Source: Telmatactis stephensoni (Eukaryota > Cnidaria > Anthozoa > Actiniaria > Isophelliidae). Taken from it: a DNA stretch of 64,000 nucleotides. The translations under genes and the position numbers were made by a program. Below, one piece after another: positions 20,426 to 48,930 of this stretch (position 1 is the first letter of the stretch; each line of letters starts with the position of its first letter). The notes below the pieces were generated by a model. The model was not told where the DNA came from. It saw only the letters and a program-made list of their open reading frames with translations, and searched no databases. The stretch lies in contig JALIZF010001621.1 in NCBI GenBank assembly GCA_029948255.1, positions 419,793 to 483,792 on the forward strand, written 5' to 3'.

Positions 20426-21789
20426 TTAGTGTCTAATAGTTGTATTGCAACAAAAGAAAACAATGGGTGCAGAGTCTATTAGTGTCTATTAGCTTAGTAA
20501 CTATTTTACAGTCCGGTGAAAATCACTCTAGTGTACATTAAGGTATTCTTACAACACTGTCTTTCAACTTTAAATTATAAGTAATATATCAAACACGGGA
20601 AACAATGTTTTATCCCATATCCAAACACCGAGAAGTGGGGTGAAAAAACAGGCGCAGTAGAGGTCTTTTAAACCAACTTTGAGATCTTTGGATATCGAAT
20701 GAAACACTCTTTTAAGTGTTTGAAATCAAAGCGAAAGTTGGCCAAATTTAATGCTAATTAGGATCACATATCTAAACCACCGTCACGGTAGTGATTATTT
20801 GTTTTCTCTCATTAATTATTCTTATTAATGTTTGAGAAAAAAATTGAAGAATTCATGTCACGAATTTCACGAAAAACTGTTAAACCACTTGCGCTAGTTT
20901 TGGAGCAAAGTTTAGCAAAGACTGTTTTGCGTGTAACTGAGTGTAATCGAGTCAATTAAAGGCACTAGTGTATTTTCTTACGTTACAAGAATCCAACTCT
21001 GATAAAACCTTCAGTTCCAAAGGCTGATCACGTCGGCGTCTTTTCATAACAAATGCATTTTTCAAGTGTTTTTTAAAATACATAAATAATTCAAGAATTA
21101 AGGTGTCACGAATTTCACTAGAAGCCAAATTCCTTTAAACAATTTGCACTGGTTTTGGAGAAAGACTGTCTTGCCTTTAACGGACTGAAATTGAGTCGTT
21201 TTGAGACAAAAGTGCATTTTGTCACGTTGCGAGAATCCAATTCTGATAAAAGCTTTAGTTCCACAGGCTGATCAAATGGGCGTTGTTTCTTTATACTGCA
21301 AGCTTTTCAAGTGTTAGCTTTATTAAAATAGGTTGTTTTTTTGCGCCGCAAAGAGCAGAAACAAAATACAGCGAAAAATCTCTTTGGTGTAATATTTAAG
21401 TTCACAAACTTCTTGAAAATATGCATTTTAGCGAATGGAAAACACGAACTGTAGCATATATTATTATACCCACGAATGCTGTGTGCCGAAGTGATTATCT
21501 TTTATAATTACTGGTCAACTTCATAACCACCCAAATCACCCAAATTGTTTAAATTGAGGTATTTATTTATTTTTAAAAGTTGAAGTATTGTTTGAGCATG
21601 CGTAGTTCTGCTGATTTTGTATCCCACACGTTTTGATACCCGTGTTTGTCATAACAAAGAAAGGCTACGGCACTTAAATTCTGAATGGGGAGCTGGATTT
21701 TGAAAAGGCTCTGAAAAGTACTGTGACTGCTAGCTTAGCAGTTACATTACTTTATCATCCTGCAAATCTGGTTCCCCTGTAAGCAAAAC

Positions 21790-21897
21790 ACGCTGCATTA
21801 TTATTAATAATGCTGTGGGAACACAGAATCAAACAGCATTATTAAAAATAATGCCGTCTGCTAGATTAGACAGACGGCATTATTTGCAATAATGCAG
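21790..21897. repeat. Cluster of GCATTATT/AATAATGC hairpins
   Basis: TGCATTATTATTAATAATGC is itself a palindrome. AATGCCGTCTG pairs with CAGACGGCATT a few bases on, and further GCATTATT copies surround them. Specific to unit 1. Confidence 0.6.
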
Positions 21898-22449
21898 CTG
21901 CTCTATGCTTTTTCTCTCTGCAGTCGTTGCTATAATGCAGAGTGAAAACAATGAGTTTTGGTAAAAACAGTAATTATATGAAGTGAACTGGCTCAACACT
22001 AGAATGAGCTGTCTTGGTTCTAATTGATGAGATAATGTCTTGTCTGCAAAACTGACACACAACTTATTTATGGCAATTAAGATTGTTATTTTTTTTTCTG
22101 CATGGTATTTATATATTATTCTATTGCTTAAAAGCCTTGCACGCACATTTGCAAAATTACTAAAACTAGCCTTATATTTCGTGTACACCACACAGATGAT
22201 ATGCATCAATAGTATTAAGGTCTCTTGGTATTACCAAGTTGCATGCTTTCAAATATGTAGAGGATGGCAAACAAAGGTTTTTTTCCCTGTATTTATTGAG
22301 TGTTCAAAAACCCTATCTTGTTTTGATAATTCTCGTACTGACAGAAAAGGAACTAGACTGATTCCACAAGTCCTAGTTTTCGCTCTTCTATTCTGGTTGG
22401 CCAACTGAGAAGCGAACAAACCCGACTTATGGAATGAGTCTACTAACAA

Positions 22450-22745
22450 TGATTCAAGCTGGTCGACCGGGATTCCTGTGTTACAATTAACGACGTTTCT
22501 TCAATGCGTTTGAACTTTTCCTTTCAAATTGTAAATGCTTTACTTGGAAACCCTAAAAATACATTTCTCTCGTTGCACTCATCCTTTGTTATTTTAATAA
22601 GGCATTTCAATTGGTGTTTCAAATTTTCATACTCTGAGATACTCGGAAGGTTTACAAAAAATGCAATCAAGAGTGGCATATCGGAATTTACAAGTTCCGA
22701 AAAATAACTGGACATGAAATTGCTTGACGACCAAAACGACATCAC
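22450..22745 (-). pseudogene. Recurrent minus-strand frame in array units
   Basis: This frame (MPLLIAFFVN, YENLKHQLKCLIKITKDECN, NVFLGFPSKAFTI) is repeated in units 0 (15,019-15,303), 1 and 2 (47,938-48,159). In unit 0 the codon after FTI is TGT and the frame runs on; in units 1 and 2 it is TGA. The residues look protein-like but match no family I know. It could be the remains of a transposon gene that founded the array, or chance. Confidence 0.25.
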
Positions 22746-24080: not shown

Positions 24081-24310
24081 ATAAGGGACGGACCATTAGA
24101 AAAGTGGTGTGGGGGGGGGGGGGGGGTGGGCTACAAAATCAAATATATATATATTTCCAGTAAAGAAAATTCAGAAAAAAAATTGCTGCCATGCAAGGCG
24201 AAAAATTACGGTTATCCCCCAAAAATTTATGCCGTTTTCAACTCTCCCCCCCCCCCCTCCGCCCCCCCCCCCCCCCTCCGCCCCCCCCCCCCCCCCCAAA
24301 TAATAAGAGT
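24081..24310. repeat. G- and C-homopolymer bearing insertion
   Basis: It starts AAGGGACGGACCATTAGAAA, then a G run, and ends in three C runs. The start resembles the TIR of the 34,241-35,462 element (AGGGACCGGTCATTTATTAG). Probably a related MITE with a lost or rearranged right end, lying between the two convergent transposon genes. Confidence 0.5.
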
Positions 24311-24903: not shown

Positions 24904-24911
24904 CCAAATCG
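24904..24911 (+). repeat. 8-bp target duplication CCAAATCG, left copy
   Basis: Identical to 42,344-42,351 on the other side of the 17.4-kb element. Confidence 0.85.
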
Positions 24912-25219
24912 GGATCTCTCAATCATACTGGTCAATAATCGAGTCGATGGATATGCACCACCCGATCGACTCGAACGCCACTCGATCGAGGATCGGGGGA
25001 TCGGCGATCGGCGATTGGGGATCGGAGTCGAGGATCGGCGATCGGCGATCGGCGATCGGCGATCGGCGATCGGCGATCGGCGATCGGAGAAGGACAGACA
25101 TTGGATCACATCGGATCTACCATCGGGATCGGGAATCGTAGCATTAATTAGGAATCGCAGCATTAATCTATCCTCATGTATTTCCCATTTTTATTTTATT
25201 TTTACTTATGGTAAGTATA

Positions 25220-25507
25220 GAGTGCTTACAATATATCCGTGAAAAAGTTAGCGAACTAAAAAAATTGTACTAAATAGCGCGAAATCCTTTGTTTTCTATT
25301 GATTAATTAGTGCAAATTAGTGCAATTCTTTACAAAGTTTTTCACGGATAGAGTGAGCGCACTTAACCCGTGAAATAAAAATTAAATGTTAGTGTGTAAT
25401 AGTTCAATAGACACAAAAGAAAACAATGGAAATAGGATCTACTAGTAACTAGTAGTCTAATAACTATTTCACGGGTTAAGTGCGCTCACTCTATATTGTA
25501 AGCACTC
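25220..25507. mobile_element. MITE inside the left TIR (outer of a nested pair)
   Basis: The ends are GAGTGCTTACAATATATCCG and its reverse, flanked by TA. The right TIR of the large element shows the empty site GTAAGTATAATGACT (reverse of about 42,050), so it arrived after the large element. Its own right arm is split by the next MITE. Confidence 0.88.
25351..25491. mobile_element. 141-bp MITE inside the MITE
   Basis: GAGTGAGCGCACTTAACCCG and its reverse with TA on both sides, inserted in the outer MITE's right arm (CACGGA-TA-TATTG restored on removal). It contains the core ACAAAAGAAAACAATGG. Confidence 0.9.
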
Positions 25508-25652
25508 TAATGACTAGTTTGTGATCCTTTTACAACGCATCAGACTCCTTTTATGTATAGGAATACTCAAGTCGATTTTTCTCACTAAAACCACATTGAC
25601 ACATGAACATACACATTTATTTCATCAAGTATTTTTATTGTTCAAAATAACA

Positions 25653-26633
25653 CTAAAGATTTATTAGAGTACAAACACTAAAAGTGTTCATACTTTGTAC
25701 GATTTAGCACTAAATACAGCTTGAGTAGCTTTGACCTGATCTTGATCGACTCAAATCCGTTCAAGAATCCTATATATTATGCAGAAGGAATCTTAAATAA
25801 ACTCATCAACCTAACTACACTTCTTATTTTTGCTTTTAAATAGGTTTCTCAACGAAAATCAGACAACATAAGTCAGAGTTTGAACTGATACGGTCGCCGA
25901 CTCGGATTGCTTGAGAAACTATTCCAAAACAAAAATAATAACTTTAGAAATATAAATGAGTTTATCTAGTATGTAAAAAAGACTAAAACTAACTGAATAG
26001 ATGTGATTTTTCGCATCGGGCGAGTTTACTACATGAGTCCGGGCGAAGCGACGATTTTCCCGGCGACTTAGTACCGGGCGAATTAACCTTTGGGCTAGTT
26101 AACTGTAAACCGCTGGAGTGATGAGACATTTCTTGCTTTCCCTTTTTTTTAATTTTTCAATTAGATCTTTCATGCTAACAACCGCTTTGTGTTTTATTGT
26201 ACTGTGGTGTTTTTCTTCTTTCCTTTCTCTTTCATACTTAAATTTCAGGCCTCAAAAATTATAGGAAATAAAATAAAATAAAGTTCCCCTCTTCTCGGTC
26301 CTTTTTTCACAATCATCAATCCTTTTCCCCTTACACCCCCTTCCCTTCTTGTCTGTTGTTTTTCATTATATTCCTTTTTCTCTTTCCCTTCTCTTTTCAT
26401 CTATTCTTCTCTACATCTCTTTCCCTCCTTTCCTTTCCTTTCTCTTCTCAGTCCTTTTGTTCTCTTTTGTTCTCTTCTTTCCTCTTATGTTCCTTTGGTT
26501 TTTTTTTTTCAATTTCATCTCTTTTCTATCAAAACAATATAAACCTTGCACTGAAAACACCATGTTTGAAATGCTTTATGTTGGAGTTGTAGGATAAATA
26601 AAGATCTGATCTGTCTCAATGTGTAGAAAATAC
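25653..26633. other. No gene; solo MITE end and T/C-rich tract
   Basis: A single MITE end, GAGTACAAACACTAAAAGTG, stands near 25,674 without a partner. From 26,280 to 26,520 the plus strand is almost all T and C, which produces open frames rich in Phe, Leu and Ser. Confidence 0.6.
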
Positions 26634-26854
26634 AAATAGACCATTTCACAGATACCGTAGCTCAACCTCAGCCTCGTCACAGTGTAATTATTCTTTAGAA
26701 TATTATGTACATTCCACGGTAATGTAAGGAATTTACACATCAACGGACAATGAAAGCACATCCAAATTCCACGGGCTGTACTATATTTCAAAAGAATATA
26801 TTGCACTGTGACGAGGCTGAGGTTGAGCTACGGTATCCGTGAAATGGTCTATTT
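26634..26854. mobile_element. 221-bp MITE with ~53-bp near-perfect arms
   Basis: AAATAGACCATTTCACAGAT at the left end is reversed at the right (GTGAAATGGTCTATTT), the arms continuing through CGTAGCTCAACCTCAGCCTC. Arm identity is very high, so it is young. Confidence 0.92.
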
Positions 26855-27484
26855 ATGTGACTGGATATTTTGTTCGTTTAGTGAGAAGCAAACCATATTT
26901 CCCATATATGTATTTTATCATCTTAATATATAAATATGATTCATGTGTAGTAAGATCTTTGTAATAATCTTCCTTTTTCTCTTCCTTATTTTTCTTTCTT
27001 CCAGTTATCTCTTATCTTCTTTGAACAAGTTCTGCTCTCTTCCATTTTGGTCATCCTTACAAGACAAAAAGAAAAAGAATTTTAATAGTAACCCTCGTGA
27101 TCATAAAAGCTGTTATAAAATCAATTAATTAATAAATAGTTAACTGCAGATATTTGGGATTGATTCAAACAGTTTTATGAAAACTTACTGAATTCATCAA
27201 TAGTAATTAGACTAAAAAAATTATTTGTTCAAACAATATTACATACAAGTAATTAATATAATGAGGCAACTAACCACTATCAACAACCATGGAGTCATCC
27301 CACCTTGATAATTATTTTCATCCATTTCAAAAACAACCTGGAAATAAAAATTAATGTGCCAGTAAGCATAAAAGACCCTAAAATACACAACTCAGGGTCT
27401 TTTATGCCTACTGGCCTGGCATAATGTAAAGCAATTATAATCGTACATAATATGAGCATTAACACCTTCCCTTTCAAACACAAA
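26855..27484. other. No gene; one short hairpin
   Basis: T/C-rich then AT-rich sequence; only the hairpin at 27,358-27,415 stands out. Confidence 0.5.
27358..27415. other. 58-nt hairpin with 22-bp stem
   Basis: GCCAGTAAGCATAAAAGACC pairs with GGTCTTTTATGCCTACTGGC with one mismatch (the stem extends by CT/AG), over a loop of about 14 bases. The size is like a microRNA precursor, but a minimal foldback element is equally possible. Confidence 0.6.
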
Positions 27485-28449
27485 GTATATCAATTATTAA
27501 AAAACCTACACAAACAGCTTCCCTATCAGACATGAAGTACCACCGCACCGCATGCCCTCAAGTCCAGATGTATATTTCAATTATTAAAAAACCTACACAA
27601 ACAGCTTCCCTATCAGACATGAAGTACTACCGCACCGCATGCCCTCAAGTCCAGATGTATATATCAATTATTAAAAAACCTACACAAACAGCTTCCCTAT
27701 CAGACATGAAGTACCACCGCACCGCATGCCCTCAAGTCCAGATGTATATATCAATTATTAAAAAACCTACACAAACAGCTTCCCTATCAGACATGAAGTA
27801 CCACCGCACCGCATGCCCTCAAGTCCAGATGTATATTTCAATTATTAAAAAACCTACACAAACAGCTTCCCTATCAGACATGAAGTACCACCGCACCGCA
27901 TGCCCTCAAGTCCAGATGTATATTTCAATTATTAAAAAACCTACACAAACAGCTTCCCTATCAGACATGAAGTACCACCGCACCGCATGCCCTCAAGTCC
28001 AGATGTATATTTCAATTATTAAAAAACCTACACAAACAGCTTCCCTATCAGACATGAAGTACCACCGCACCGCATGCCCTCAAGTCCAGATGTATATTTC
28101 AATTATTAAAAAACCTACACAAACAGCTTCCCTATCAGACATGAAGTACCACCGCACCGCATGCCCTCAAGTCCAGATGTATATTTCAATTATTAAAAAA
28201 CCTACACAAACAGCTTCCCTATCAGACATGAAGTACCACTGCACCGCATGCCCTCAAGTCCAGATGTATATATCAATTATTATAAAACCTACACAAACAG
28301 CTTCCCTATCAGACATGAAGTACCACTGCACCGCATGCCCTCAAGTCCAGATGTATATATCAATTATTAAAAAACCTACACAAACAGCTTCCCTATCAGA
28401 CATGAAGTACCACCGCACCGCATGCCCTCAAGTCCAGATGTATAATAAT
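27485..28449 (+). repeat. 87-bp tandem repeat, ~11 copies, open in one frame
   Basis: Each unit is 29 codons (MKYHRTACPQVQMY then ISIIKKPTQTASLSD). Copies are nearly identical; variants such as CGC/TGC and AAA/ATA change residues, so no sign of selection for the peptide is visible. An ATG in every unit opens a frame of 308 codons (27,532-28,458). Period 3n keeps any frame open, so coding is not implied. No spacers, hence not CRISPR. It lies inside the 17.4-kb element. Confidence 0.92.
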
Positions 28450-29640
28450 ATTGCCTGAGCTTTGTAAGTGTGATTCACTTACCTCACTTCATTTTCATCA
28501 CCAACAGTTGTTAGCCTGGGGAATCAATAGCAACGGTTATTTTGTTATTTTAAAAACATGCAATATATTCAATACATATTCCAATATATTCTCTTTAGAA
28601 CAAGGTCGATCTGCTTAAATTGACATAATTTTAACAAGTGTATGAATAACTTGCTCTTCAATATTGTGAGTTGTCCTATTTCATTATGACTTTGTGGCTT
28701 GTTTATGAGGGGACAGAATGGTTTAGAACATAAATTTGTTTATCCTATTGGCTACACTAAGGTTAAGTCTTAACTCAAAGGGCATAGTCATATGAGTCAT
28801 TTGTCAGTACATTTTAATCAAACAAAGTTTAAATTAATGCTCAAAATACTCAGTGGACAAATAAATTCTTAAATTCTTAACAAGTTTTTCAGCTCAAATA
28901 TGCCATTTGGGTACAACATCTTGAAATATTGAATGATAATAAGCTTTGTTGTATTAATGTCTAATTGTTTTTGTTGTATTAATCTCTAGAAGTTTGATAA
29001 ACTTTGTCGTTTTTGAAAAAAGGTTTTGTCCACCGTAGTATATGTTTTTGTGTGTATATTGTAGAAGATGTGCTTCAAAGGGATAAAATCTCACAGACAG
29101 ACACAAGGTTTTGTTTTATTAATTTACACAGCCCACGCTCACTTTAGTTCAGTTAAATCCGTAGATATATGTGAATTTAAACATCTTAAATATCATACAT
29201 TTTATGAACGTGAACCAAAACAATATTTGTCAAATTCTCTTTAATAAATATGTAAATAACACTCAGCAAGTGAATTTCGTGACTTTGCTAACAATGAATG
29301 AGAAATTTTAAATACTATCAATGAGAAAATTTGGAGTTCATTGTTAGTTATTAATGAGTGAAGGTAAATCCCGATTATTCACAATCAAAGAGTGTGTCAA
29401 CCTTTTTATTATTTAATTTGAATACAGTACTGCAGAAGCATCGGCTAACACTGTCAATACGAAATCTTATCTTTATTCTTGACCCACCCCTGAAAGTGTT
29501 TCAGTTATGTTTTGACCCACCCCCTAAATGGTTTACGACCCCCCCCCCCCCCCCCCCTCCAATACACACACACACACAGGTGTACAGATACAATGTACTT
29601 TTCATTCTTCAAAACCAAGACTGTGGACTGTTATAAATTT

Positions 29641-29748
29641 GTTGGAAACACCATTGAAAGACTTAATTGAAATGATATAAAAATTAATGTCAACAGTCAA
29701 GAAAGTCAAAAATATCAATTCATTAAGTCTTTCAGTGGTATTTCCAAC
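29641..29748. mobile_element. 108-bp foldback MITE
   Basis: GTTGGAAACACCATTGAAAG pairs with CTTTCAGTGGTATTTCCAAC; the arms extend through ACTTAATGA. Confidence 0.65.
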
Positions 29749-30885
29749 CCATTCATATTAGACTGTCAAGGAGTCGAGATCAACCAAACAACCTTGGTTT
29801 TGTGGAACAGCAATTACGTATTTCTGCTGTGCTGTTCTTGTTTGGTTGTTATAAAGGAGATAGATCCAAAGTATTATATCAATTGACATCCTTGAAAAGT
29901 CCTAGCTTATTTTTTTGTAGTCAAATTGTTGCACGAATCTATTTGTGCCTTATTATATAGATGTACATGTATATTGTGATGCTTATAAAAAAAACTTACA
30001 CAAATATTATTCTGTTCGCCGTCTTTATTGAAGGAAGGAAAACCCAAAAAATCTATTGTAAGAGATTCAAAACTACTAGTTGTCTGCCTTATTAAAAAGA
30101 ACTGAACCCACCCCCTCTCATTTTATATTTCCATAATGACCCACCCCCTGTTGTCTAAAAAAATACAACTATACTGAACCCCCTATGATTTCTCCCCTCT
30201 TTCATAAATAGTTACTGGTCCCTAAGATCACTAGAAATAACTCAAGTCACTCAATTCAAAATTAGTTGAAGAGCATTTCATGGTAATTTTAACAATAGGA
30301 AATAAAATAAGTTGTATTTGAAAGTTCTTCAATGAGGTAAAATCTCACAGACAGCCACATCATATCGCTAAAATTTCTGGTGAATCTAAACTTTGCTTTA
30401 TTTACACAGACTACTCTCACTAGTTCAGGTAAATCGACAGATGTTTAATGTGCTCATCCACAACCAAAACAACAAGTACATGTATTCTTTGTCAGATTCT
30501 CTGTAATACAAAAGTATTCTTTATCCTCCACAGGGTGCGATTCATATTTTTATAAACAAACTTTCATCAGATAGTTTTATAATGAATGCTATTAAAAAAG
30601 ACTGTTTGAAAAGGCAATAAATTTGAATAAAACGTATTTATACATTTCTTAAAACTTGTTTTGTTGTATCATGCACTAGTCAACCTGTTTGAAAACATTT
30701 TGAATAATACAGTATATAAATACTTAGACTGCTCACAGCACTTCACTTTCTGTTAGTAACGGCTAGTTTTAAATATGCTTGCTAATCTTCTCTTTTTCGA
30801 AAAATCCTTAAATTTATCACCAGGAAAATTTTTGTCATTCTCACTGTGCTTTACTGCCATTCAATGTTAGTTTTAAATGCACGAG

Positions 30886-30936
30886 TATTATTACGTCGTG
30901 ACGTGTTGACGTCATAACACGCGTCACGTGGTACAA
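30886..30936. promoter_or_regulatory. Cluster of CRE/AP-1-like sites
   Basis: TTACGTCGTGACGTGTTGAC and TGACGTCATAACACG, followed by CGTCACGTGG, give a full CRE (TGACGTCA), two CGTCA half sites and an E-box CACGTG within 50 bases. No start site or gene can be tied to it. Confidence 0.3.
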
Positions 30937-32458
30937 ACTGACCAATCAGGAAATCGGAATTTGTACAGTGTATGAAAATTGAATAATAAAATGTAAGATT
31001 TATCAAATATTCTTTAGCCTACACAGGTTGCGATTCACGTTTTCTCCAATCAAATAGTTTTATGACCATGCTAATACAGACTGTACGTGAATGTTTCAAA
31101 AAGTTTTAAAAAATTATTCAAATGTATTACTTTTTCTCTAATACAGCACTTAAACAGCTTGCAGTTCACTTTGTTTAATAGTAATGGCTAGCATATAAAA
31201 CCATAATTGCATTTTTTGTAGATTACCCTATAAAACTTCAGTTTTGCCGCAATGCGTTCCGCACAGAGAACTTGTTGACTGATAAGAAATCCGACCCACG
31301 TGCTCGCTGCATTTGATTCTGACCGTGTACGATAAAGCGTTTACTATTTCGAATTCCTCGTCATATATAAAGCACTGTCGATACCCCTTTATCTTTTCCT
31401 TGAAAGAAAGTTCCCTGCTAGCAGAGTCTCCCTTTACCTTCTCTGTGAAAGGAAGACTCTGTCGCATGTTAGAAAATACAACCTCACCAGTTGATCACGG
31501 GTCTTTGCCGAAGGTCTTTCTCTTGAGGGCATTCCTAACTCTCTTCTGGGGACACTTGGTTTACTTGTCACATAAACAGACATTGATAAACATTATCACT
31601 CTACCGACGGCACCTTCTTTATAGTGTTTAGATGAAATTGCCTTGGAATAATCCTGGACACAATGTACGTTCATAACTGTTGGCGTCAATGTTGAAATCG
31701 AAGTCTTCTACGCAGCCGCAGTTTATGTCGTAACGCAAGGCTTCCAATTGCGTGACGACAGAAGCTGTGCACATGTAAATACCTAACATACCAACATACC
31801 TCATTGTTACACAGGAGGTTCGGGTTTTGAAACTTTTTCGGTATGTACAAACTCTTTTCAGTAGACTATAACGTATAATTATTCTGTCACGTCGATGCGA
31901 ATTTTATCTCAAACCATTACTACCAAAATCATGAATATGATCTCATTTTTTGTTCAAATAACCCAAGTGAACCGCTTGCTCATCTTTTCGTGTTACTGCA
32001 TTGTTGGTGAGCCACGTCTGAAAACGCTTCTATTATCTGAAGACGTGTATTTTTAAAACTCCGAATATGGCAGATCCTTGGACTTTCGGTGACCTGACGG
32101 TAGTGGAGAAACTTCCCTCTGCACTATGTCAAAATCACTGGAAATAGGATACGCTTGCTTTGTTTCTGATCTATTTTAGCCACTATTGTTATGACTGCCG
32201 GATTGTATATAGTGAAAACCCATGTACATGGGATTGGTATATCTCGAGATATGTCAGTTTTGTAATAATTACGCCCAATTTCAAAATTACGGGACCCAGT
32301 GGCGATGGCTTGTCTGGATTTTAAGCTTCTGTCAATCAAATCAAGTAACGACTAGAATCTGTAAAATTTTGGCTTTCTAAATTCAGGAACAAAACAAACT
32401 TGAATTTATTGACAGAACATTTTCTATTTTCCGACTTTTGATGTAAAATTTAAGCTTA

Positions 32459-32820
32459 TGTTATGTTATGTTATGTTATGTTATGTTATGTTATGTTATG
32501 TTATGTTATGTTATGTTATGTTATGTTATGTGATGTGATGTGATGTGATGTGATGTGATGTGATGTGATGTTATGTTATGTTATGTTATGTTATGTTATG
32601 TTATGTTATGTTATGTTATGTTATGTTATGTTATGTTATGTTATGTTATGTTATGTTATGTTATGTTATGTTATGTTATGTTATGTTATGTTATGTTATG
32701 TTATGTTATGTTATGTTATGTTATGTTATGTTATGTTATGTTATGTTATGTTATGTTATGTTATGTTATGTTATGTTATGTTATCTTATCTTATCTTATC
32801 TTATGTTATCTTATGTTATC
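32459..32820 (+). repeat. TTATG pentamer satellite with TGATG block
   Basis: About 70 TTATG units run without a break except for eight TGATG units near 32,530-32,570 and a few TTATC at the right end. All three plus frames stay open and encode Leu-Cys-Tyr-Val-Met repeats, which is not a gene. Confidence 0.97.
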
Positions 32821-34240
32821 TTCTTTTTGTTTCCTTGTTTTTCCTTCCTTCAGAGACTCCATGATAACCCTGAAGGAAGTCGTGTTGAAGCGTGGCGAGA
32901 TGACAGGCACCACGTTTCATGATCTTGTGGAAAAAAATCGTGCCTCTGTTACAACATTGGAATATGAGAGTTGTTAGTTTTTGTTCGAATGTATATTTAA
33001 CAATTACTCCGCAAACAGTCCACGATTAGACGCGTGGACCTGGAGATGAACTTGTAACAAGAAACCATAATACTGCTAGAGAGCGAAACTCGGTACTGAT
33101 GTTTTGAAGTAGCGATGTTCAATTTTTTAAGGCTATTTTTAAAAACTTCGCTATTATATACAGAATTTGATTTTTTGATAGATGTGCGCGCGGAAGTTTA
33201 CTTTCGGCATTTAAATTTATTGTTTAAGAGCCTTGCGCGCACAATGGATGGCGATGGATCTAAAAATAGCCTTAGCTGCCACGAACATCTCATAGACATC
33301 AATACTGAGTTTCATTCTCTCAATATTATGGTCTCTTGCTTGTAATAAATGTAATCTCAAATGTTAAAGATACAACCGGTTATTTTGGTATATTGAATGC
33401 CATAAAAGTGAATGTAATAGGCCATATGCACTAACAGGTCACGTGACCCTATCTCCCCTAAAATTGAAGATTAGGTATTTTCTTAAGATTCGTTCGTAAA
33501 AGCGCAGCTTGCCATCCAACGCGTTTTTCCAAACAAATCTTAAGAAAATATCACTGTCATTTCCCCTGCATCTTACTAGCTGAAACTTTGCACTTTTACC
33601 AATATCGAGGTGCTCTTTCTGTTTCTGGTGTTTATTTTGACCGTACCGCTTGATTTAGGGGAGATAGGGTCACGTGACCTGATATGACTTATTGTCATGA
33701 ATTGACAAAAGTTTTATAACAAACTTTAGTCTTCAAGATTAGTGTTAAGGTTTAAATATTCAATTACGTTTTACTGTAAAATGTACAATAAAATCTTTTA
33801 TTGTGAAGTAATTTTGTTTACTTCTGTGCTCAAGGTATATTTAGTAAATGGACCCCTTCTGGCGCTGTTATATTGAAGCGCAGAAACGAGTCGATTTTTC
33901 ATGGACACACAGGGAACTGTGCGTCAGTACGTGGTCCGTGTACATCGTGTTGGCGCCAAAGTGACGCGCGCTGACACTGAAAACTAAAAATCTAATGGTT
34001 TCCTTGCAGCTTTAAATTGTAAAGCTTAAAAGTATTAATTTGGATACCTCGTTAAAATTCAGCGATTTTGGTGATCATTAATCTGTGCCAATCTTGACGG
34101 GTTAAAGCGAAAAAAAAAACCCCGTACGTTTGAATTTTTTTCCGGCCCGGTGTCGTTTCAAAAACTGCTCGAATGACGAAGGACACAGAGAATATTTTCA
34201 AAGTTGGACGACTTTTTAGTTGGATTCGTAGCTTCAAAAA
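32821..34240. other. No gene; old copy of an array segment and a MITE
   Basis: At 33,215-33,345 TTGTTTAAGAGCCTTGCGCG and GGTCTCTTG resemble the array unit around 22,120-22,230 (ATTGCTTAAAAGCCTTGCAC), with many differences. Otherwise only the MITE listed next. Confidence 0.5.
33436..33680. mobile_element. 245-bp MITE with CACGTG in the arms
   Basis: AGGTCACGTGACCCTATCTC and its reverse form perfect 27-bp arms; a looser match continues outward for about 15 bases. A second small hairpin (ATTTTCTTAAGATT) lies inside. Confidence 0.85.
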
Positions 34241-35462
34241 AGGGACCGGTCATTTATTAGAGGGGGGGGGGGGGGGGGATGGGCTGGTGCAAATGGGGTG
34301 GGGGTCATGCCTTTTTGTGCAACCTAAATTGAGGGGCTTCATGAAATTATGTGAAGAATTCTAAGGGGTCATGTGTTTAGTTCATCCCATTCAAAGGTTG
34401 TTTTAGTGTCACTATGAAATAGTCAACTATCAAGACAGAGTAAATTAAGTATTTTGAAAACATAGTAACTATTCTTGATGTTTCATACAACAAGATATTG
34501 AGTGTACTTTTCCTTTTTTTCATAGCAGTATTTTCAATGAATGTGAACACTACAATGTATAACAGAAAAATCAAATCTTTATCAATAACATCAACAAATT
34601 TAACATTTAAATGTTGACATTAAACAAAACAGGTCATAATATTATAAAGGTGTATAGTTAGGGTTCTGATTGCATATCCAGATGCATAAACAGTCAACGA
34701 ATTAATTGTTTTACATGCAATGTTGTTATAATAAGGTTATTAATCACTCTCAACAACAACGCTATGGGAATCCTCTGAATCACTGGTGGAGCTCTCACTG
34801 CTGCTTTCGCATATTGATGGCAAGTAATCTCTGAATACCATACATGCTCTATCGAAAATAACTTTTTTTCCATCATTATTTTTTTACAGCTGTTTTATTT
34901 TACAGCTGTACAGCTGCTTTCCTTCTAGTGACACAAGTGCATCCACATTAACTTCCTGGATAGTAGTTTTACCATCAGACAACCGTTTGGCGATTAAATG
35001 AAAATTTTCTACTTCTCTATCTGCTTTTCTTTTCTGAGCCTTTTTTTTTCTTGTCCATTTTTGATTTTTTCTTCGACTTGAATTTCATAAGGTGCCCACG
35101 AAACATGTCTTTGCATTTGCTCTCTATGTTATGTAAAAACTGAAGCTTTTCAAGCACTGTTTTTCTTAGCAATGCCAGCACTGTAATCTTTTCTTCATTA
35201 AAGTCGTGCCGGACTGACATCCCATCCTTAAGCTTTTCAGTCTTGGTATACAATGTGCTAAGGTTTGTGATTACATGTGCCTTAAAATTGGGGATACTGA
35301 GTTTTGGATGGGTCATGTAAATTTATGCTCTCATTCTCAATTGGTCATGCCATTTTGTGCATTTGAAATCTCAGGATCAAACAAAAATATGTCATGAAAA
35401 ATAAAAATGCACCAGCCCATCCCCCCCCCCCCCCCCCCCCTTCTAATAAATGACCAGTCCCT
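34241..35462. mobile_element. 1.22-kb TIR element, GGGACC type
   Basis: AGGGACCGGTCATTTATTAG, a G run, then GATGGGCTGGTGCA at the left; the reverse at 35,405-35,462. A minus-strand frame (35,017-35,316; MTHPKLSIPNF with a Lys-rich end) fits a small basic protein but matches no transposase. Probably a deletion derivative of a larger transposon. Confidence 0.82.
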
Positions 35463-36052
35463 AAAGTGGGAAATCGTCTCCATTGCATTGAGAGTAACTA
35501 AAAACTAGGACTGTGCTTCGAAAAACAACACAAGGAAAAGGATTTGAGTGTTAATCCAGAACGAAAATTTGGATTAAAACTCGCACGAAGGTCTAGTTTT
35601 TGGCGCTTTTTGCCATGATTGCCGTCATTGAAAAAAAAATCTCCTCTTAATGAGCTTAGGATCGACCCAGGCAAGTATTTCAGGCAAGTCTAAATTAAAT
35701 CAAATATTGCATATAGAGGAAAACTAAGTCAGACTAAAAGTTATACAAATAGGTGACAAAAATAAAGGGTTACCAACTAGTGTAGGAGAATCTAAAAGGT
35801 AAATCCAGATAAGAAGGAAATAATCAATAAAAGTTAAGTAGCTAGGGCGGAGCCAGGTAAATATACAAAAGTAGGTGGGAGGCTATACGTGATATCAGTT
35901 AAAGTTATTTTAATAGCCCACGTAGATCCACACTTAGCTTTATGATTACATTAGAATTTATGCTTCTTACTTTCAGTGTTAAAAATTTAATTTTTATTCA
36001 CTCATAGAACATGCATAAAGTGTTGTATTAAGAAAAATGTAGTTATCTCCTA

Positions 36053-36185
36053 GAGTGATTTTCATTTGACCGTGAAAGGAAAATGATTATTTAGTTAACT
36101 TTGTAGTAGTTGATAAAAAAAAGAAAACAATGGCTCTAGAGTCTACTACCAACTATTAGTTTGTCCATTCCTTCATGGTCAAACT
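36053..36185. mobile_element. Diverged GAGTG-type MITE
   Basis: It starts TA-GAGTGATTTTCATTTGACC; the right arm (CATGGTCAAAC) is weak. The core AAAAAGAAAACAATGG at about 36,117 is the one found in the other MITEs of this group. Confidence 0.6.
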
Positions 36186-37616
36186 TGATGGTCTTTTTTC
36201 ATTAGCTGAGTTTGACAAATCTCTACGGTGCACTGTTCAAAGATGACATGTTTTTAATCGATTGGAGCAAGAAATTACATGTGGTACAGTCGTTCATCTG
36301 CGCGCCATCGTTTTTTGCCTATTCATATAGTCGGCAATCGAGCGAGGAAGAAAGCGTTTTGAAGCTTCAGTCTTCACTGGGTTTAGAAACTTACGGAATC
36401 ATGCCACCCCAAACCATAGTTAATAGAGGGGACCCCTCTATTAACTATGCCCAAACATAGAACTCTTTTCAGGGATGAACAGGTCATGAGACACTGGAAA
36501 ACAAGCCTCACACTAAGCCATGAAAATGGCGAGATCAAATCTGATGAAATAAATATCAATTATGGCATCTTCTGTCTTCTTATGGCATAATCAACTCTTT
36601 TATTCTGTATTACTCTAGTGTAAATAAGCCAGCTAAAAAAGAGCGGCTGCATAAATGAGATCTAATCAAAAGGGTACACACTTTGTTCTTTATGCACGAT
36701 CTGAAAATTCACAGCCGCAACAACACTCAACTTGAAAGACTTCATAATGTGCCTCTATTTATGAAAGGTAAACTGATTGACGCTGGAAATGATGAATTAG
36801 ACAGCGAGACAACGATAAAAAATAAACGAAGGAAAGAATGAACCAATGAATGAATGAAACCTTTATTTGACCAGCGTAACCCCTATACAGCAACTGCTAT
36901 CAGTAGGGGCCCTGAATGATATAAAATTTACAATAGAATATCAAGTCTAAAACCAAATGCTATATGAACTATGATTGACAAGTGGAAATGATTGTTAATT
37001 CATCTATTAACTAGATGATGGCAATTTAATAAACTATCAACGACGTACTGTTAAACTATCTTTAATGGGCACATGGGCTAGCCGAACATGACAACCCATA
37101 GGTCAGACTTTCCGTCTGTAATTTGACATTGGTTAATCTTTCTTATCAAACTACTATTATTGGGATATATAACTTTAATTAATAGCTACAAGTAGTCAAA
37201 ATGCTTCAAATTTAATAGTATTTCTTTTTGTAATAAAAATATCACCAAACAAAAAAGTTGAAAAAGCGGTTCCAGTTACATTTTTACTCTGAAACGTACA
37301 GAATAATGCTCGACGTGTGTTGAATTGTAATGAAATCCTCTTTCCTCGTAAATACCATCCTCGACAAGAACTTTAGATTTGACTACGACGACTACGACGA
37401 CGTTTTCATTGTTATTGTTAGTACGCATGCGTCAGACCGTGACAGTCGCTCGCTTGAAAAACTCGTCATCGCTTCGACTACGAGTTTTATAGTGAAACTA
37501 GTACTCATTACGACGAGGTTTTAAGTATAATTTATCGAAATATCTTGGTCATTTATGTCATGATCAAAACTATTCAATGTAATCTTTAATGATCAGCCCT
37601 CTAGCTTGTGGAAACG

Positions 37617-37871
37617 GATATAGACGACTTTCAAAAATGGCGGCCTAGTAAATGAGAGCGAGGCCACAAAAGCCTTGTTACCAGAAAATAATTGTGGCGA
37701 CACTTCTATTGCTATCAAAGACGATGTATTCCTCTTCCTTTTCAAATACCTATTTTCTGTGCATTTTACAGAATATACTTAGACTCATTATATGCCATGA
37801 TAATTTTGGAGGCCTATCTGGCCTCGTTATCGTGAACAATGAGCGCGCCATTTTTGAAAGTCGTCTATATC
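37617..37871. mobile_element. 255-bp MITE
   Basis: GATATAGACGACTTTCAAAA (arm 26 bp, ending ATGGCG) is exactly reversed at 37,846-37,871. Confidence 0.85.
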
Positions 37872-38063
37872 GGAAGTTACTTTTTCGATAAGAAAATGCG
37901 GAAGAATGGAATGCTGAGATAGTTCGTATTGATGTTTTTGAATCCAAAGTTCACGTGAGCACGACTACGCAACAAGGTAACGCGCGCAACAAGAATACTC
38001 GTACTGGCGGGACGTCTTACTCGCAGCCAAATCTGAAGTTATACAATAAGTAATTGAATTACG

Positions 38064-38593
38064 TCATACAGGGACATTCGTATAGATTAAACTAATTGAT
38101 GTGAATAGATTTGACATAATATCTTCCCGTTGACCACCTTTCCACTCCCTCCACATACTCTCGTTTAAAAAAGACTGCACATCGTCGTTGTACATTCCTC
38201 TTCGTTCTTTAACTTTCTGTTTCAGTTGGTTCCACTTGGATTCGATACCTTGAGTGTGAACCCCCGTCAATGGATCTACGAAATGCAGAGAGTGGTTCAC
38301 TACTCTATGTCGCGCAACTTTCTGTGGTAGATGTAAGGTCATATCTCTATATGCGCCCCAGTCATCTGTGTGTACTTCGCTTTGGGGTTTCAAGCACTTG
38401 TCTAAAATCGGTAGCAGTGTCCGTCTGTTACGTTTTTCGACAACTGTGTAATAGCCTCTTGCCGGGCTGTATTCGGTGGTGATGACACCAAAAACCCACA
38501 AGTCTTCACTTGCTCGTCCTCGGTGATTCTGTATGGATATATTCGAGAATTAGTCAAAAATGGGCCTTAAAGTATACAAAAGTTTAAACTCCT

Positions 38594-38648
<55 letters not shown>

Positions 38649-39863
38649 ATTAAGCGGTTTGAGTTGTCCGATTGATTGAAAATTCAACAATATGTTGAAT
38701 ACACTTACAATTAAGGCCGGAGAAATAACATTTTAAAGAAAAATATAATTGCCCCGAAAACACTAATTAACAAATCCAAAAGACATTAAAGGAAAAATTT
38801 TAATGGCAAAACAATACTTTTCTCCCGTTAACATGCAGACAGATATGTTTTCGGCGTGTCGCCAATTAGTTTTTTTGGGTTAAGTTAAATAGAAGCAATT
38901 TATGCAAAACAAAAGATTGTACCTACATTTCTCACTCAAAATTCTCACCTAGTCAGCTTGCAGTCAATATATAGAACATGAGCATTTATCGGCGAATGAG
39001 AAGGCACTGAAAAACGACTTGTAAACTTTCGCTTCAACTGCTTCAACAACGATGGATTTCCGCCAAAGCGGCAAACTTCAGCATTCGGTAGTGACAGGGA
39101 AGCTTCGCTTCTCGGCCAAATGTTCATTTTTCGGACCATCTCTAATCCTCGGACATTATCCGTCGATATACCAGCAGCCCGAAGGGGTTTATTTACTAAA
39201 TAACAGTTAAAAGTGCAAAAAACCTAGCTTCTCTTGTCGGTTTAGTTATTCCAAATTTTCGCTTTGGATTTTTTCAAATCGATTTTCGGATCGAAGATAA
39301 AAGTTTCAAAGTTCTACCCCTTTCAGTGTTACCATGACAACAGAATGAAATACGTCTGTAGCTAAATGTTTTCTTTTTTAGTTAAGAATTAAATGATGAC
39401 GGTTATTTTGAGCCGACAATGGGAGATTTTATGGAATCTTTTATTTTCATCACACAATCGCGAAATCTCATAAATCCAAATGATTATATGGCTTGCCTGT
39501 GATCAAAACAGTTTACAACTCTTCAAAGCAAATTTGACACATTCTGCCATTCTACCTAGCCTTACCTTGGATTTGTGGTTGAATTTCGATTCATCACATT
39601 GTACTAGACACTGGAAATTTGGACCACCGAACGGAATAAATGGATATCTCTCGATATCTGCCGTGCATACATCTTCCAAATGTCGAAAAAATTTCGAGAC
39701 AAGGTTCTCGCTCACACCAACATGATCAGCGGTTTTTGTTCTCGATTCTTCGTGGCACCAAAAGTACATCAGCAACAGGAAATCACCAAGATGAACCTTT
39801 GGATGCTTGGCAAAGATGCTATTGCATCTCAACGACCTTTTTTTCCCACATTCTCTGCATCTC
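38064..39863 (-). CDS. Merlin-type DDE transposase, at least two exons, N-terminus missing
   Basis: Exon A (39,863-39,566) reads RCRECGKKRSLRCNSIFAKH (zinc-ribbon end), a helical segment, and VQCDESKFNHKSK with the first catalytic Asp. A clean intron (donor AAG-GTAAGG at 39,565, acceptor ACAG at 38,529) joins in phase 0 to exon B (38,528-38,064): NHRGRASEDLWVFGV, HTDDWGAY (second Asp) and HTQGIESKWNQLK (Glu), ending SLIYTNVPV. This is the IS1595/ISXO2 (Merlin) domain, complete with DDE and free of stops. The 1.04-kb intron holds a CAA repeat. A first exon with the CP-x-CG half of the zinc ribbon must lie upstream beyond the purine tract; I could not find it. The acceptor of exon A (TACTGTTCAAG) follows a pyrimidine tract on this strand. 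Merlin enzymes give 8-9-bp duplications, as seen around the large element. Confidence 0.85.
38595..38648 (+). repeat. (CAA)n microsatellite in Merlin intron
   Basis: About 18 units, uninterrupted. Confidence 0.95.
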
Positions 39864-39889
39864 CTTGAACAGTACGAGAAAATATAGTC

Positions 39890-41354
39890 AGTTGTATGAA
39901 GTCAAGTTGTATGAAGATAGAAAACGGAAAGAGAGAGAGAAAAGAGAGGAGAAGGAAAGGGAACAGAAAGAAAGAGAGCGACAAGAAAGAGAGGAAAGAC
40001 AAAAGAAGGAAAGGGAAATTAAAGAAAGAGAGAGACAAGAAAAAGAGGAAAGAGAACGGAAAGAGAGAGAGAAAAGAGAGGAGAAGGAAAGGGAAAAGAA
40101 AGAAAAAGAGCGACAAGAAAAAGAGAAAAGAGAACAGAAGGAAGGGGAACTTAAAGAAAGAGAAGAAAAAGAAAAAGGAGAAAAGGAACGAAAAGAAAAA
40201 GAAGAAAAAAAAAAAAAGAAAGAGAGATAAGACAAAAGAAGGAAAGGGAAATTAAAGAAAGAGAGAGACAAGAAAAAGAGGAAAGAGAACGGAAAGAGAG
40301 AGAGAAAAGAGAGGAGAAGGAAAGGGAAAAGAAAGAAAAAGAGCGACAAGAAAAAGAGAAAAGAGAACAGAAGGAAAGGGAACTTAAAGAAAGAGAAGAA
40401 AAAGAAAAAGGAGAAAAGGAACGAAAAGAAAAAGAAGAAAAGGAACGAAAAGAAAGAGAGATAAGACAAAAGAAGGAAAGGGAAATTAAAGAAAGAGAAG
40501 AAAAAGAAAAAGAGGAAAGAGAACGGAAAGAGAGAGAGAAAAGAGCGGAGAAAGAAAGAGAGAGACAAGAAAAAGAGCGACAAGAAAAAGAGAAAAGAGA
40601 AGAGAAGGAAAGGGAACTTAAAGAAAGAGAAGAAAAAGAAAAAGAAAGAAAAGAAAGAAAAGAAAAAGAAGAAAAGGAACGAAAAGAAAGAGAGATAAGA
40701 CAAAAGAAAGAAAGGGAAATTAAAGAAAGAGAAAAAAAAGAAAAAGAGGAAAGAGAACGGAAAGAGAGAAAGAAAAGAGAGGAGGAGGAAAGGGAACAGA
40801 AAGAAAGAGAGAGACAAGAAAAAGTGGAAAGAGAACTGAAAGAGAGAGAGGAAAGAGAACATCAGAAGAGAGAAGATAGAGAAAGTGAAGAAAGGGAACA
40901 GAAAGAAAGAGAGGAAAAGGAAGGGAATGAAAAGGAGGAAAAAGAAAATAAGGAAAGGGAACTGAAAGAAAGAGAAAGAAACGAAAGGGAAGAAAAAGAA
41001 AAAGATGAAAGACAACGGAAAGAGCGAGAAGATAGAGAAAGGAAAGAACTGGAACGAAAAGAAATAGAGGAAAGTGAAGAACAAGAAAAAGAGGAAAGAG
41101 AAACGAAAGCGCGAGAAGATAGAGAAAGGAAAGAAAGAGAAAGAAAAGAAAAAGAGGAGAGGGAACGGAAAGAGAGAGATGAAAGAGAACAGAAGGAAGA
41201 AGTAGAAAGTGAAGAGGAGGAAAGGGAGGAAAGAGAAGGGAATGAAAGAGAGCCTAAGGAAAGAGAAGAAAGTGAGCAGAAGCAAAAGAAGAATACAAAA
41301 CGAAGGCAACGGAGAGAAAGGGGGAAAGAAAAGAGGCAAAAGGTCATGAATTAA
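39890..41354 (+). repeat. 1.46-kb near-homopurine tract
   Basis: The plus strand is almost only A and G, with rare C and T. Loose units such as AAAGAGAGAGAAAAGAGAGG, AGAAGGAAAGGGAA and GCGACAAGAAAAAGAG recur, and a block of about 320 bp is repeated (near 39,990 and 40,240). Plus frames (39,640-40,230; 40,824-41,354) encode Lys/Glu/Arg repeats like a single alpha helix, and the minus strand is open for 511 codons of Phe/Ser/Leu. The frames break between units, so I read it as a repeat, not a gene. It lies directly upstream of the first visible Merlin exon. Confidence 0.85.
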
Positions 41355-41909
41355 GATAACTTTCAGATTAAGAAGAATTTTTAATATGTGGTGAATTTGC
41401 ACGAGCACAAACACTAAAATCATGAAACCGTTATTTAAAAAATACTAAATTTAAACAGTTTCATGGTTTAAGGGTTATAAGGGTTTGCGCTGTAATTCCA
41501 ATTTTTATAATTTCAAATAGGCACTATATATAGCTAATATATATATATATATAGCTAATTCAATTAACGTCGGTGAAACAAGCCTAAAGCCGCGGAATCA
41601 TGAAATTTTTTTTATCTCCATGACATCATTGCAATATAAAACGTACTCACTGTATGCTTGCAAATTCTCCTACAGAGAAGTTTGTTAGTACACAAAAGAT
41701 AGTTGAAAGGCTTTAGCTTTTTTCAGCGAAATAGCATATATCTCAATTGAAGTTAATGATACTTGAAATGAAACCACAAAGAATTATTAGATAGAAGCTA
41801 GAAATGAACAATGTCAACTATTTAGAACATGATCAATCTTTGAAGTTAATTATACTTGAAATGAAACCACAAATGCACGAAAAAATTATATATGAAAGAA
41901 CAATGTCAA
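41355..41909. other. No gene
   Basis: AT-rich DNA with a TA run at 41,530-41,560. A short foldback near 41,420-41,470 (AATCATGAAACCGTT with AACAGTTTCATGG). AAGTTAATTATACTTGAAAT-type direct repeats at 41,750 and 41,835. Confidence 0.5.
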
Positions 41910-42343
41910 TGTTATTTTGAATAATAAAAATACTTGATGAAATAAATGTGTATGTTCATGTGTCAATGTGATTTTAGTGAGAAAAATCAACTAATTGAGT
42001 ATTCCTATACATAAAAGGAGTCTGATGCGTTGTAAAAGGATCACAAACTAGTCATTATACTTACCATAAGTAAAAATAAACTAAAAATGGGAAATACATG
42101 AGGATAGATAGATTAATGCTGCGATCCCAAATAAGTGCCACGATGTTAGATCCGATCGCCGATCGCCGATCGCCGATCGCCGATTACCGATCGCCGTTCT
42201 CATCCCCGATACGATCGCCGATCCTCGATCCTCTTCCCTGATCCCCGATCGCCGATCGCCGATCCCCGATCGAGTGGCGTTCGAGTCGATCGAGTGGTGC
42301 ATATCCATCGACTCGATTATTGACCAGTATGATTGAGAGATCC
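41910..42343 (-). repeat. Right TIR of the large element
   Basis: It is 434 bp, reverse of the left TIR, without the nested MITEs. GATCGCC 7-mers lie at 42,150-42,280. A 60-bp stretch of the GATC-rich part differs from the left arm by rearranged repeat units. Confidence 0.88.
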
Positions 42344-42351
42344 CCAAATCG
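42344..42351 (+). repeat. 8-bp target duplication CCAAATCG, right copy
   Basis: Directly outside the right TIR; see the left copy at 24,904-24,911. Confidence 0.85.
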
Positions 42352-46373: not shown

Positions 46374-46524
46374 GAGTGATTTTCATCGGACTGTGAAACA
46401 ATTACTAATAGTCAGTGTTTAATAGTGTCTAATAGTTGTATTGCAACAAAAGAAAACAATGGGTGCAGAGTCTATTAGTGTCTATTAGCTTAGTAACTAT
46501 TTCACAGTCCGGTGAAAATCACTC
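46374..46524. mobile_element. 151-bp GAGTG-type MITE nested in an older MITE (unit 2)
   Basis: GAGTGATTTTCATCGGACTG and its reverse between TA pairs. Its removal joins GCACGCTTT-TA-GTGTACTT, the right arm of the older MITE that begins GAGTACAAACACTAAATGCG (46,246). Core ACAAAAGAAAACAATGG at about 46,446. Confidence 0.85.
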
Positions 46525-48930
46525 TAGTGTACTTTAAGGTATTCTTACAACACTGTCTTTCAACTTTAAATTATAAGTAATATATCAAACACGAGTACCA
46601 ATGTATGATCAGCGTATCAAAACACCGAGAAGTGGGTTAAAAAACGATGTGCTGATGAAACACGAGGACGAGTGTTTGATCTAGCTTCTCAAATTCATGG
46701 ATAATTATTGGATAAATTCAAAGCAAAAGTTAGTTAATTTATGCAAGTGTTTGATCAGTGTATCAAGACACTATCACGGTAGTGATTTTCATTTACTCAT
46801 TAATTATTCTTATAAATGTTTGAGAAAAAAATTAAAGAATTCATATGTCACGAATTTCACGAAAAACTGTTAAACCACTTGCGCTAGTTTTGGAGCAAAG
46901 TTTAGCAAAGACTGTTTTGCGTGTAACTGAGTGTAATCGAGTCAATTAAAGGCACTAGTGTATTTTCTTACGTTACAAGAATCCAACTCTGATAAAACCT
47001 TCAGTTCCAAAGGCTGATCACGTCGGCGTCTTTTCATAACAAATGCATTTTTCAAGTGTTTTTTTAAAATACATAAATAATTCAAGAATTAAGATGTCAC
47101 GAATTTCACTAGAAGCCAAATTCCTTTAAACAATTTGCACTGGTTTTGGAGAAAGACTGTCTTGCCTTTAACTGACTGAAATTGAGTCGTTTTGAGACAA
47201 AAGTGCATTTTGTCACGTTACGAGAATCCAATTCTGATAAAAGCTTTAGTTCCAAAGGCTGATCAAATGGGCGTTGTTGCTTTATACTGCAAGCTTTTCA
47301 AGTGTTAGCTTTATTAAAATAGGTTGTTTTTTTGCGCCTCAAAGAGCAGAAACAAAATACAGCGAAAAATCTCTTTGGTAAGAACAGTAATTATTTAATA
47401 GATAATCACTGAGGCACGCAGCATTCGTGCGTATATTGCAGGCAGCTGAGGGCGCAGCCTGAAACTGGCACACACAACTTATTTATGGCTATTAAGATTG
47501 TTATTTTTTTTTCTGCATGGTATTTATATATTATTCTATTGCTTAAAAGCCTTGCACGCACATTTGCAAAATTACTAAAACTAGCCTTATATTTCGTGTA
47601 CACCACACAGATGATATGCATCAATAGTATTAAGGTCTCTTGGTATTACCAAGTTGCATGCTTTCAAATATGTAGAGGATGGCAAACAAAGGTTTTTTTC
47701 CCTGTATTTATTGAGTGTTCAAAAACCATATCTTGTTTTGATAATTCTCGTACTGACAGAAAAGGAACTAGACTGATTCCACATGTCCTAGTTTTCGCTC
47801 TTCTATTCTGGTTGGCCAACTGAGGAGCGAACAAACCCACTTATGGAATGAGTCTACTAACAATGATTCAAGCTGGTCGACCGGGATTCCTGTGTTACAA
47901 TTAACGACGTTTCTTCAATGCGTTTGAACTTTTCCTTTCAAATTGTAAATGTTTTACTTGGAAACCCTAAAAATACATTTCTCTCGTTGCACTCATCCTT
48001 TGTTATTTTAATAAGGCATTTCAATTGGTGTTTCAAATTTTCATACTCTGAGATACTCGAAAGGTTTACAAAAAATGCAATCAAGAGTGGCATATCGGAA
48101 TTTACAAGTTCCGAAAAATAACTGGACATGAAATTGCTTGACGACCAAAACGACATCACCCTGAAGTAAGCGGCCTTAAAATTTACCTTTTTTACAATGT
48201 ATTTTGGATAGCTTACAATGCTTCAATGGCCATGAAATGTGTAGGATTAAGAAAAAACTAGGTGAAAACGGTGCTACTGAAGTAAAAAAGAATTATCGAG
48301 GTAATCTGAAGTTTTCTAGCTTTGTGTAAACATAACTGAAATGATAAACAAAATTGAAAAGGCGCAGCTCTATCAACTTGGCGTAAATTCATATTTCTCA
48401 AAATTGTGCAAAGCAATTTTGTTCTATTTCTCCAAACGAACAATTTTAATTGTTAAAAAAAGAGTATGGCAACAAAATGAGCTTAAAAGAAGGTGTTTGT
48501 CGTCACTATAAATTATTGGTAGTTCCGATCATAAATAATAATAATAATGACTTTAATATTTATAACGCGCATATATTCATTAACATATGCTCATATGAAG
48601 AAAAGAATTAACAGTCTTCAGCCATAAATAAGTTATGTGTTTTTTGCAGACAAAACCAATTTAGCTCATTCAAGTGTTGAGCCAGTTCACTTCATATAAT
48701 CACATAATCTAAAATTTCAACCAATATCCTGAAAGAACTTTAATCCTCGGTTCTTTAAGAACTAGGATAATGAAGCCATCTTTCGTGCATTTTTTCACAC
48801 ACAGCCGCATATGAGCATATGTAAATGAGCATATGATCATAATGATTTAAGGTCAAAAGAAACTTGAAACTATCTCTTGACTTACTCTGAAAATTGTTTT
48901 GAAATTAACTCACCGATTCAATTATTCTAG

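Follow-up and report, generated by a model that had tools for sequence, protein, structure and literature searches.

A 17.4-kb transposon of the sea anemone Telmatactis stephensoni as a probable deletion derivative of a giant Merlin element

What kind of element is a 17.4-kb block of DNA, bounded by long inverted repeats, that lies inside a transposase gene of a sea anemone? The whole stretch of DNA analysed, here called the window, comprises 64,000 nucleotides of Telmatactis stephensoni (GCA_029948255.1, contig JALIZF010001621.1, positions 419,793–483,792 of the forward strand); the same locus is denoted C338 in the genome searches. The block occupies positions 24912–42343. A sequence-only reading of the window had proposed that this block was a single transposon that moved as a unit of the Merlin superfamily, carrying passive DNA, at a size that would be unusual for this group, since Merlin elements are usually 1–3 kb long. 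We conclude, with a probability of roughly 0.88, that the block derives by internal deletion from a giant cut-and-paste transposon of the Merlin superfamily, the full-length form of which is ~53 kb long, with terminal inverted repeats (TIRs) of 430–450 bp that end in GG and one recognisable three-exon gene encoding 308 amino acids.

The left TIR (24912–25652, + strand) starts with GGATCTCTC and measures 453 bp without a nested insertion, a 288-bp MITE-like (miniature inverted-repeat transposable element) sequence at 25220–25507 that is flanked by TA and is common to the left ends at C109, C351 and C371. The right TIR (41910–42343, − strand) is 434 bp long, and both arms start with GGATC in the window. 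The ends lie where the sequence-only reading had placed them, but they are near-exact rather than exact inverted copies, with 16 mismatches in 404 aligned bases and insertions and deletions in a CGATCGG satellite. The window by itself allows two versions of the target site duplication (TSD), either CCAAATCG (8 bp, with GGATC ends) at 24904–24911 and 42344–42351, or CAAATC (6 bp, with GGGATC ends). The other copies described below show 8 bp and GGATC ends, which settled the matter in favor of the 8-bp duplication originally proposed; the 6-bp version was rejected.

The insertion target is a gene for a DDE_3-type transposase. As had been predicted, its reading frame (RRF-GYS) is rejoined once the block and one copy of the TSD are removed. 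One of the three relatives found of the target gene, P0091, is uninterrupted across the insertion site, residues 28–53 corresponding to the right flank and residues 51–82 to the left flank; a named relative comes from the sea anemone Actinia tenebrosa (66%). The left flank gave 29 matches in the genome, and three of the other places were fetched. At C1175 and C906, the identity to the joined flanks, junction included, was 99.8% over ~1.42 kb, and at C296 it was 97% over 1.40 kb; at all three, CCAAATCG is present once at the junction. These uninterrupted targets may be other copies of the DDE_3-type transposase family, or alleles. Together, the inverted ends, the 8-bp TSD and the three uninterrupted targets bear out the block as one transposon with the boundaries given above. 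Long direct repeats at 20424–22718 and 46420–48132 (96–100% identical in pieces), ~26 kb apart, flank the insertion region.

A Pfam search of the block in six frames identified a sole transposase, that of Merlin, with the IS1595-type DDE domain DDE_Tnp_IS1595 (PF12762). Its gene lies on the − strand. Exon A (39566–39866) encodes the first catalytic D, in the motif CDESKF, and is followed by intron 2 (38529–39565; GTAAGG...CAG) and by exon B (38064–38528), which encodes the DDE_Tnp_IS1595 domain with the second D and the E, and ends in a stop codon. The domain matched with E = 2.2e-12 for exon B of the window and 1e-12 for the 308-residue protein encoded by longer copies of the element. The complete DDE triad (CDESKF, DDWGAY, IESKW) was aligned with 13 relatives, two of which lacked the first block. 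The N-terminal exon (~55 residues) was not found in the window, where the best profile score was 5.8 bits. The earlier description of a DDE-complete, stop-free transposase thus stands for the catalytic residues and for the two exons, which contain no internal stop, but not for the gene as a whole: “DDE-complete” holds, while “transposase complete” would not.

The best relative of the Merlin gene was from the sea anemone Actinostola (61%). Zn_Tnp_IS1595 was not among the ten Pfam matches at E up to 1 for the 308-residue protein; Zn_ribbon_recom, a different zinc-ribbon model, matched it at 1.7e-4, below its cutoff. There was no Rfam match on the window, no match among the PDB sequences searched, and no occurrence of a 30-mer of the TIR in viral contigs, where the Merlin alignment gave one locus at 22% identity (40 stretches). 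The Merlin search in prokaryote genomes gave 11 loci (62 stretches). Two Merlin genes with intron-like breaks, L002 and L003, are on contigs in bacterial bins (Lentisphaeria and Cytophagales) and are probably animal contamination; the match to L002 starts at residue 56, after a splice acceptor, in agreement with the intron positions. Several candidates were dropped: a match at window 2568–2657 was to a different protein, two Pfam models that exceeded their cutoffs in the block by whole-protein score and a third that did not all fell inside an 87-bp tandem array with no single stretch significant, and further Pfam matches in the block and in the extra DNA of longer copies were below cutoff.

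The sequence-only reading had suggested searching the genome with the ends of the block. When the TIRs were used as probes against 483.5 Mb in 1782 contigs, the left end gave at least 12 matches and the right end at least 17; array self-matches and matches shorter than 80 or 150 bp were left out when the copies were mapped. The search found other copies, including elements with the same Merlin gene. Among the matches listed, five were left ends (C338, C109, C351, C371 and C269) and six were right ends (C338, C371, C1348, C269, C331 and C1189), plus one fragment (C461). This fragment lies outside the Merlin gene of C461 and in the wrong orientation, and was not counted as a Merlin association. 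The right ends at C331:467333 and C1189:19929 are more diverged, with 86% identity to the TIR of the window and a changed last base; because both contigs have the same flank, they were counted as one site, or a duplicated segment.

The 8-bp duplication was found within single contigs for the window and for C269, where the ends are 12,059 bp apart and flanked by TAAATTAG. Two more pairs were found across contigs: GGCAAACT flanks the left end of C371 and the right end of C1348, and CGTTCGTC flanks the left end of C351 and the right end of C371. Since CGTTCGTC falls within a 16-bp tandem array, it is the weaker evidence for a duplication. The two ends in C371 itself (C371:21687–41656) span 19,970 bp.

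The interior of the block is also shared. The left part of the element (24912–35539, + strand) is nearly all present in C351 and C371 (mostly at 96–99%) and, up to position 35433, in C109, while the right part (35536–42343, + strand) is 99.2% identical to C269:396998–403768. Between them, copies at other sites account for the entire 17.4 kb, including the nested elements, which indicates that the contents of the block were already in the ancestor of these copies. The ends, the TSDs, the uninterrupted targets and the shared interiors all support the proposal that the whole block would have moved as a Merlin unit with passive DNA.

Over positions 35540–39912, with gaps ignored, the window differs from C269 by one substitution in 4361 positions and from C109 by two in 3591 (part of the stretch), compared to 13 in 4323 for C1348 and 11 in 4323 for C351. 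With one or two substitutions in ~4 kb between the window, C269 and C109, the activity of the family looks recent, as judged from sequence divergence. When gaps were counted, the identity of the window was 98.4% to C269 at the right end, 98.6–99.8% to C109, and 96.1–99.3% to C351 and C371 in the left half. The C109 copy also contains an insertion of ~7 kb (C109:95704–102713) with a 4-bp overlap at window 36314–36317.

The longest copies are those in C351 and C1348. In C351, the element fills 49.8 kb of a single contig (C351:1–49797) and has a left end only; C1348:759–3936 continues it to a right end, C1348 having that end only, which gives a composite of ~52,975 bp. The two copies agree at 99.66–99.83% over ~28 kb. 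Both contain the Merlin gene with its N-terminal exon, located 69 bp from exon A, and with GT-AG introns; the three exons, which are identical between C351 and C1348, encode the 308-residue protein. Compared to these copies, the window is missing 14.6 kb at 35536–35539 and ~20 kb at 39912–39923. The first junction, denoted j1, has a 4-bp overlap (AAAA), with C351:23430–38035 gone, and its 40-bp sequence was found in no other fetched copy. At the second, j2, the filler repeats GTTGTATGAAG, and the lost DNA includes the N-terminal exon. The window copy is a deletion derivative of this ~53-kb parent in the same genome. The size that had been noted as unusual is thus exceeded by the parent, at ~53 kb (composite) instead of 17 kb. 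Pfam searches of pieces of the extra DNA of the parent, which excluded the 188-bp and 477-bp arrays and the outermost few hundred bases of pieces, gave no domain above cutoff.

We considered whether the Merlin gene belongs to these ends. Exon B gave 57 matches in the genome, exactly five of them at 100% amino-acid identity and the next at 67%; each of the five perfect matches belongs to an element that carries one or both of these ends. The gene might instead have had TIRs of its own inside the block. When the outer ends and pairs within the TIR satellite were disregarded, no inverted pair enclosing the gene in the window had a duplication of at least 6 bp. Around the complete gene in C1348, there was no GG-ended inverted pair with an exact 8–9-bp duplication; one AT-rich, non-GG pair spanning 14 kb was seen, compared to 0–2 such pairs in eight shuffles. 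An internal Merlin element was rejected on the lack of a GG-ended TIR pair in both places. Nor did Pfam reveal a different transposase with the same ends in the block or in the pieces of extra DNA, a search that did not extend to C331 or C1189 or to the DNA private to C109 and C269. The closest relative in the genome, L049 (C1025:39500–49499), is 67% identical in the catalytic exon and lies between inverted repeats of ~200 bp that span 4.9 kb; no GG end and no duplication were found there. By association, in five of five perfect exon matches, the Merlin transposase would be the one that acts on these TIRs.

Several observations weigh against a giant Merlin element. No single contig spans a ~53-kb copy from end to end: C351 is without ~3.2 kb at the right and C1348 without the left part. 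The flanks of three copies are crossed (C371:21687–41656, C351:49797 and C1348:759), such that the two flanks of C371 belong to different sites, the left to one and the right to the other, which points to a chimeric contig or to recombination between copies, and the CGTTCGTC match could occur by chance at roughly 1 in 16, given the 16-bp array. No Merlin match was present at C371, C331 or C1189 in the DNA fetched. For C109, the DNA searched contained no right end, and the left TIR of C269 is shortened to 119 bp, after which comes a repeated 54 bp; some copies may therefore no longer be mobile. Finally, the divergence is uneven: identities between the window and its sister copies elsewhere range from 96.1% to 99.8% with gaps counted, and the rightmost 2.4 kb of the window is only ~86% identical to C1348. 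For this reason, j2 may reflect recombination between subfamilies rather than a simple deletion.

A rival explanation is that the full length is an artefact of assembly, in which shorter Merlin units (20 kb or less) became falsely linked to unrelated repeats, giving the contig stretches of 49.8 kb and 31.9 kb. The crosswise flanks at C371, C351 and C1348, the contig breaks inside the element and the tandem arrays of 188 and 477 bp are all consistent with such joining. However, C351 and C1348 agree over ~28 kb, including DNA that is missing from the derivatives, and the difference between their outer duplications shows that they do not merely represent both halves of a single insertion. Furthermore, the window, C371 and C269/C109 retain different subsets of the extra DNA in the same order. 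We consider an artefact unlikely. A different history would be that a small Merlin element inserted and that the block then grew to 17 kb in place, through nested insertions and array expansion, of which the several MITE-like elements, a 1.2-kb element and several arrays in the block might be the traces. Yet all of 24912–42343, nested elements included, is matched in copies at other sites, and the window would have to be the source of all copies, even though C351 and C1348 hold more of the element. Growth in place is very unlikely, though nested growth can still describe how the ancestor became enlarged.

The affiliation of the ends could also be questioned. Mutator-like elements typically have long TIRs and carry cargo, and the Merlin gene makes up only ~1 kb of coding sequence in a very large unit; the TIRs might be those of some other superfamily in which long ends occur together with 8-bp duplications (Mutator-like, hAT or P), the element having simply captured a Merlin gene, as the copies at C371 and C331/C1189 without a Merlin match in the DNA fetched might suggest. 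This is improbable, since no other transposase domain was found in six frames of the block and the searched pieces of extra DNA: there was no match to a Mutator-like (MULE) transposase, and, although the duplication length fits hAT, no hAT dimerisation or transposase domain. The ends start with GG like those of Merlin, the gene has no GG-ended TIR pair of its own, and the perfect Merlin matches are confined to this family of ends. A degenerate Polinton/Maverick would fit 17 kb, 430-bp TIRs and the possible 6-bp duplication, the part of PMC6431247 covered here giving 15–25 kb for Polintons. We rejected this identification, which retains next to no probability, on the grounds that the duplication is 8 bp in other copies and that matches to DNA polymerase B, integrase, protease and capsid were all lacking from the block and the searched extra-DNA pieces.

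On all the defining features open to testing, the block falls within the Merlin superfamily. In movement, by analogy with the superfamily, the transposase would bind the long TIRs, excise the whole unit and insert it with an 8-bp stagger, the extra DNA being mostly passive. Internal deletions may arise at DNA repair, the 4-bp overlap of j1 and the copied filler of j2 being of the kind expected from interrupted gap repair. Deleted copies without the first exon would then be moved in trans by the transposase of full-length copies. The exact 40-bp j2 sequence is present in the window, C269 and C109, all at different sites, which means that a copy lacking this exon has been mobilised on more than one occasion, the simplest explanation being that intact copies provided the enzyme; these three copies apparently moved with transposase supplied in trans. 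It appears reasonably likely that a ~53-kb, recently active, single-gene DDE transposon moves intact by means of its 308-residue transposase and sheds deleted copies of 12–20 kb that are moved in trans.

P, Ac/Ds and hobo elements form internal-deletion derivatives, in which the ends are kept and a transposase exon is lost, with short-overlap or filler junctions, and which apparently moved in trans, as here; in contrast, the present derivatives are still 12–20 kb long. Among anthozoan Merlin genes, those of Actinostola (P0001), Oculina (P0002), Montipora (P0004, P0006 and P0039) and Acropora (P0007 and P0016) are 41–62% identical in amino-acid sequence to the one described here, and six of the seven carry the N-terminal part corresponding to its N-terminal exon, P0002 having only the end of it. 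In size class, the family resembles giant transposons such as Polinton/Maverick, Terminons and Teratorn. Those carry several or many genes, according to the part of PMC6431247 covered, compared to one recognised gene here; that paper counts transposons as giant from a limit of 20 kb, and Merlin is not named in its main text. For Merlin, the covered part of PMC8101967 gives TIRs of 24–462 bp, GG ends, 8–9-bp duplications, and internal tandem repeats in some families; the Zn_Tnp_IS1595 domain is reported to be absent from Merlin. The present family agrees with the superfamily, which comprises eukaryotic relatives of IS1016 and IS1595, in its DDE_Tnp_IS1595 domain, GG-ended TIRs of 434–453 bp, 8-bp duplication and tandem repeats; it differs in the ~53-kb parent and 12–20-kb derivatives, compared to the one element size, 2.57 kb, given in that part of the source. 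The family is far larger than the Merlin elements described in the literature covered, mainly papers available without subscription and including PMC2884549, PMC4455052 and PMC4495683, in which no Merlin of this size, large or captured, was reported.

Other features of the block include an 87-bp tandem array of 11 copies (27486–28444), which is present in other copies, a 5-bp (TTATG) array (32456–32819), and, within DNA shared with other copies, the nested 1.2-kb element with AGGGAC ends (34241–35463). The latter has long C/G runs, and related arms are found at window 24084–24132 and 24253–24303. An open frame rich in lysine, glutamate and arginine (40155–41354, + strand; 399 residues) is putatively coding and is possibly the last exon of a second gene. 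Its counterpart in C1348 has 495 residues (C1348:2201–3688, − strand) and lies beside the right TIR, while in C331 and C1189 it is split into shorter frames. Outside the block, a duplication at window 56202–58191 repeats an AAGG array and a 133-residue frame ~1.06 kb apart, and two fibronectin type II domains are encoded in one open frame at 58461–58967.

If this interpretation is true, the parent would exceed every other known Merlin in size and rank among the largest DNA transposons moved by a lone small transposase, and the picture of Merlin as a compact element would be broken. The finding suggests that a transposase of very small size is able to mobilise a very large stretch of DNA, and that the distance between the ends need not limit IS1595-type transposition. 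Most of the 53 kb of the parent contains no recognised gene, which raises the question of why it is kept. The series of close copies of 53, 20, 17 and 12 kb in one genome would provide a natural test of how size relates to mobility and of how internal deletions originate.

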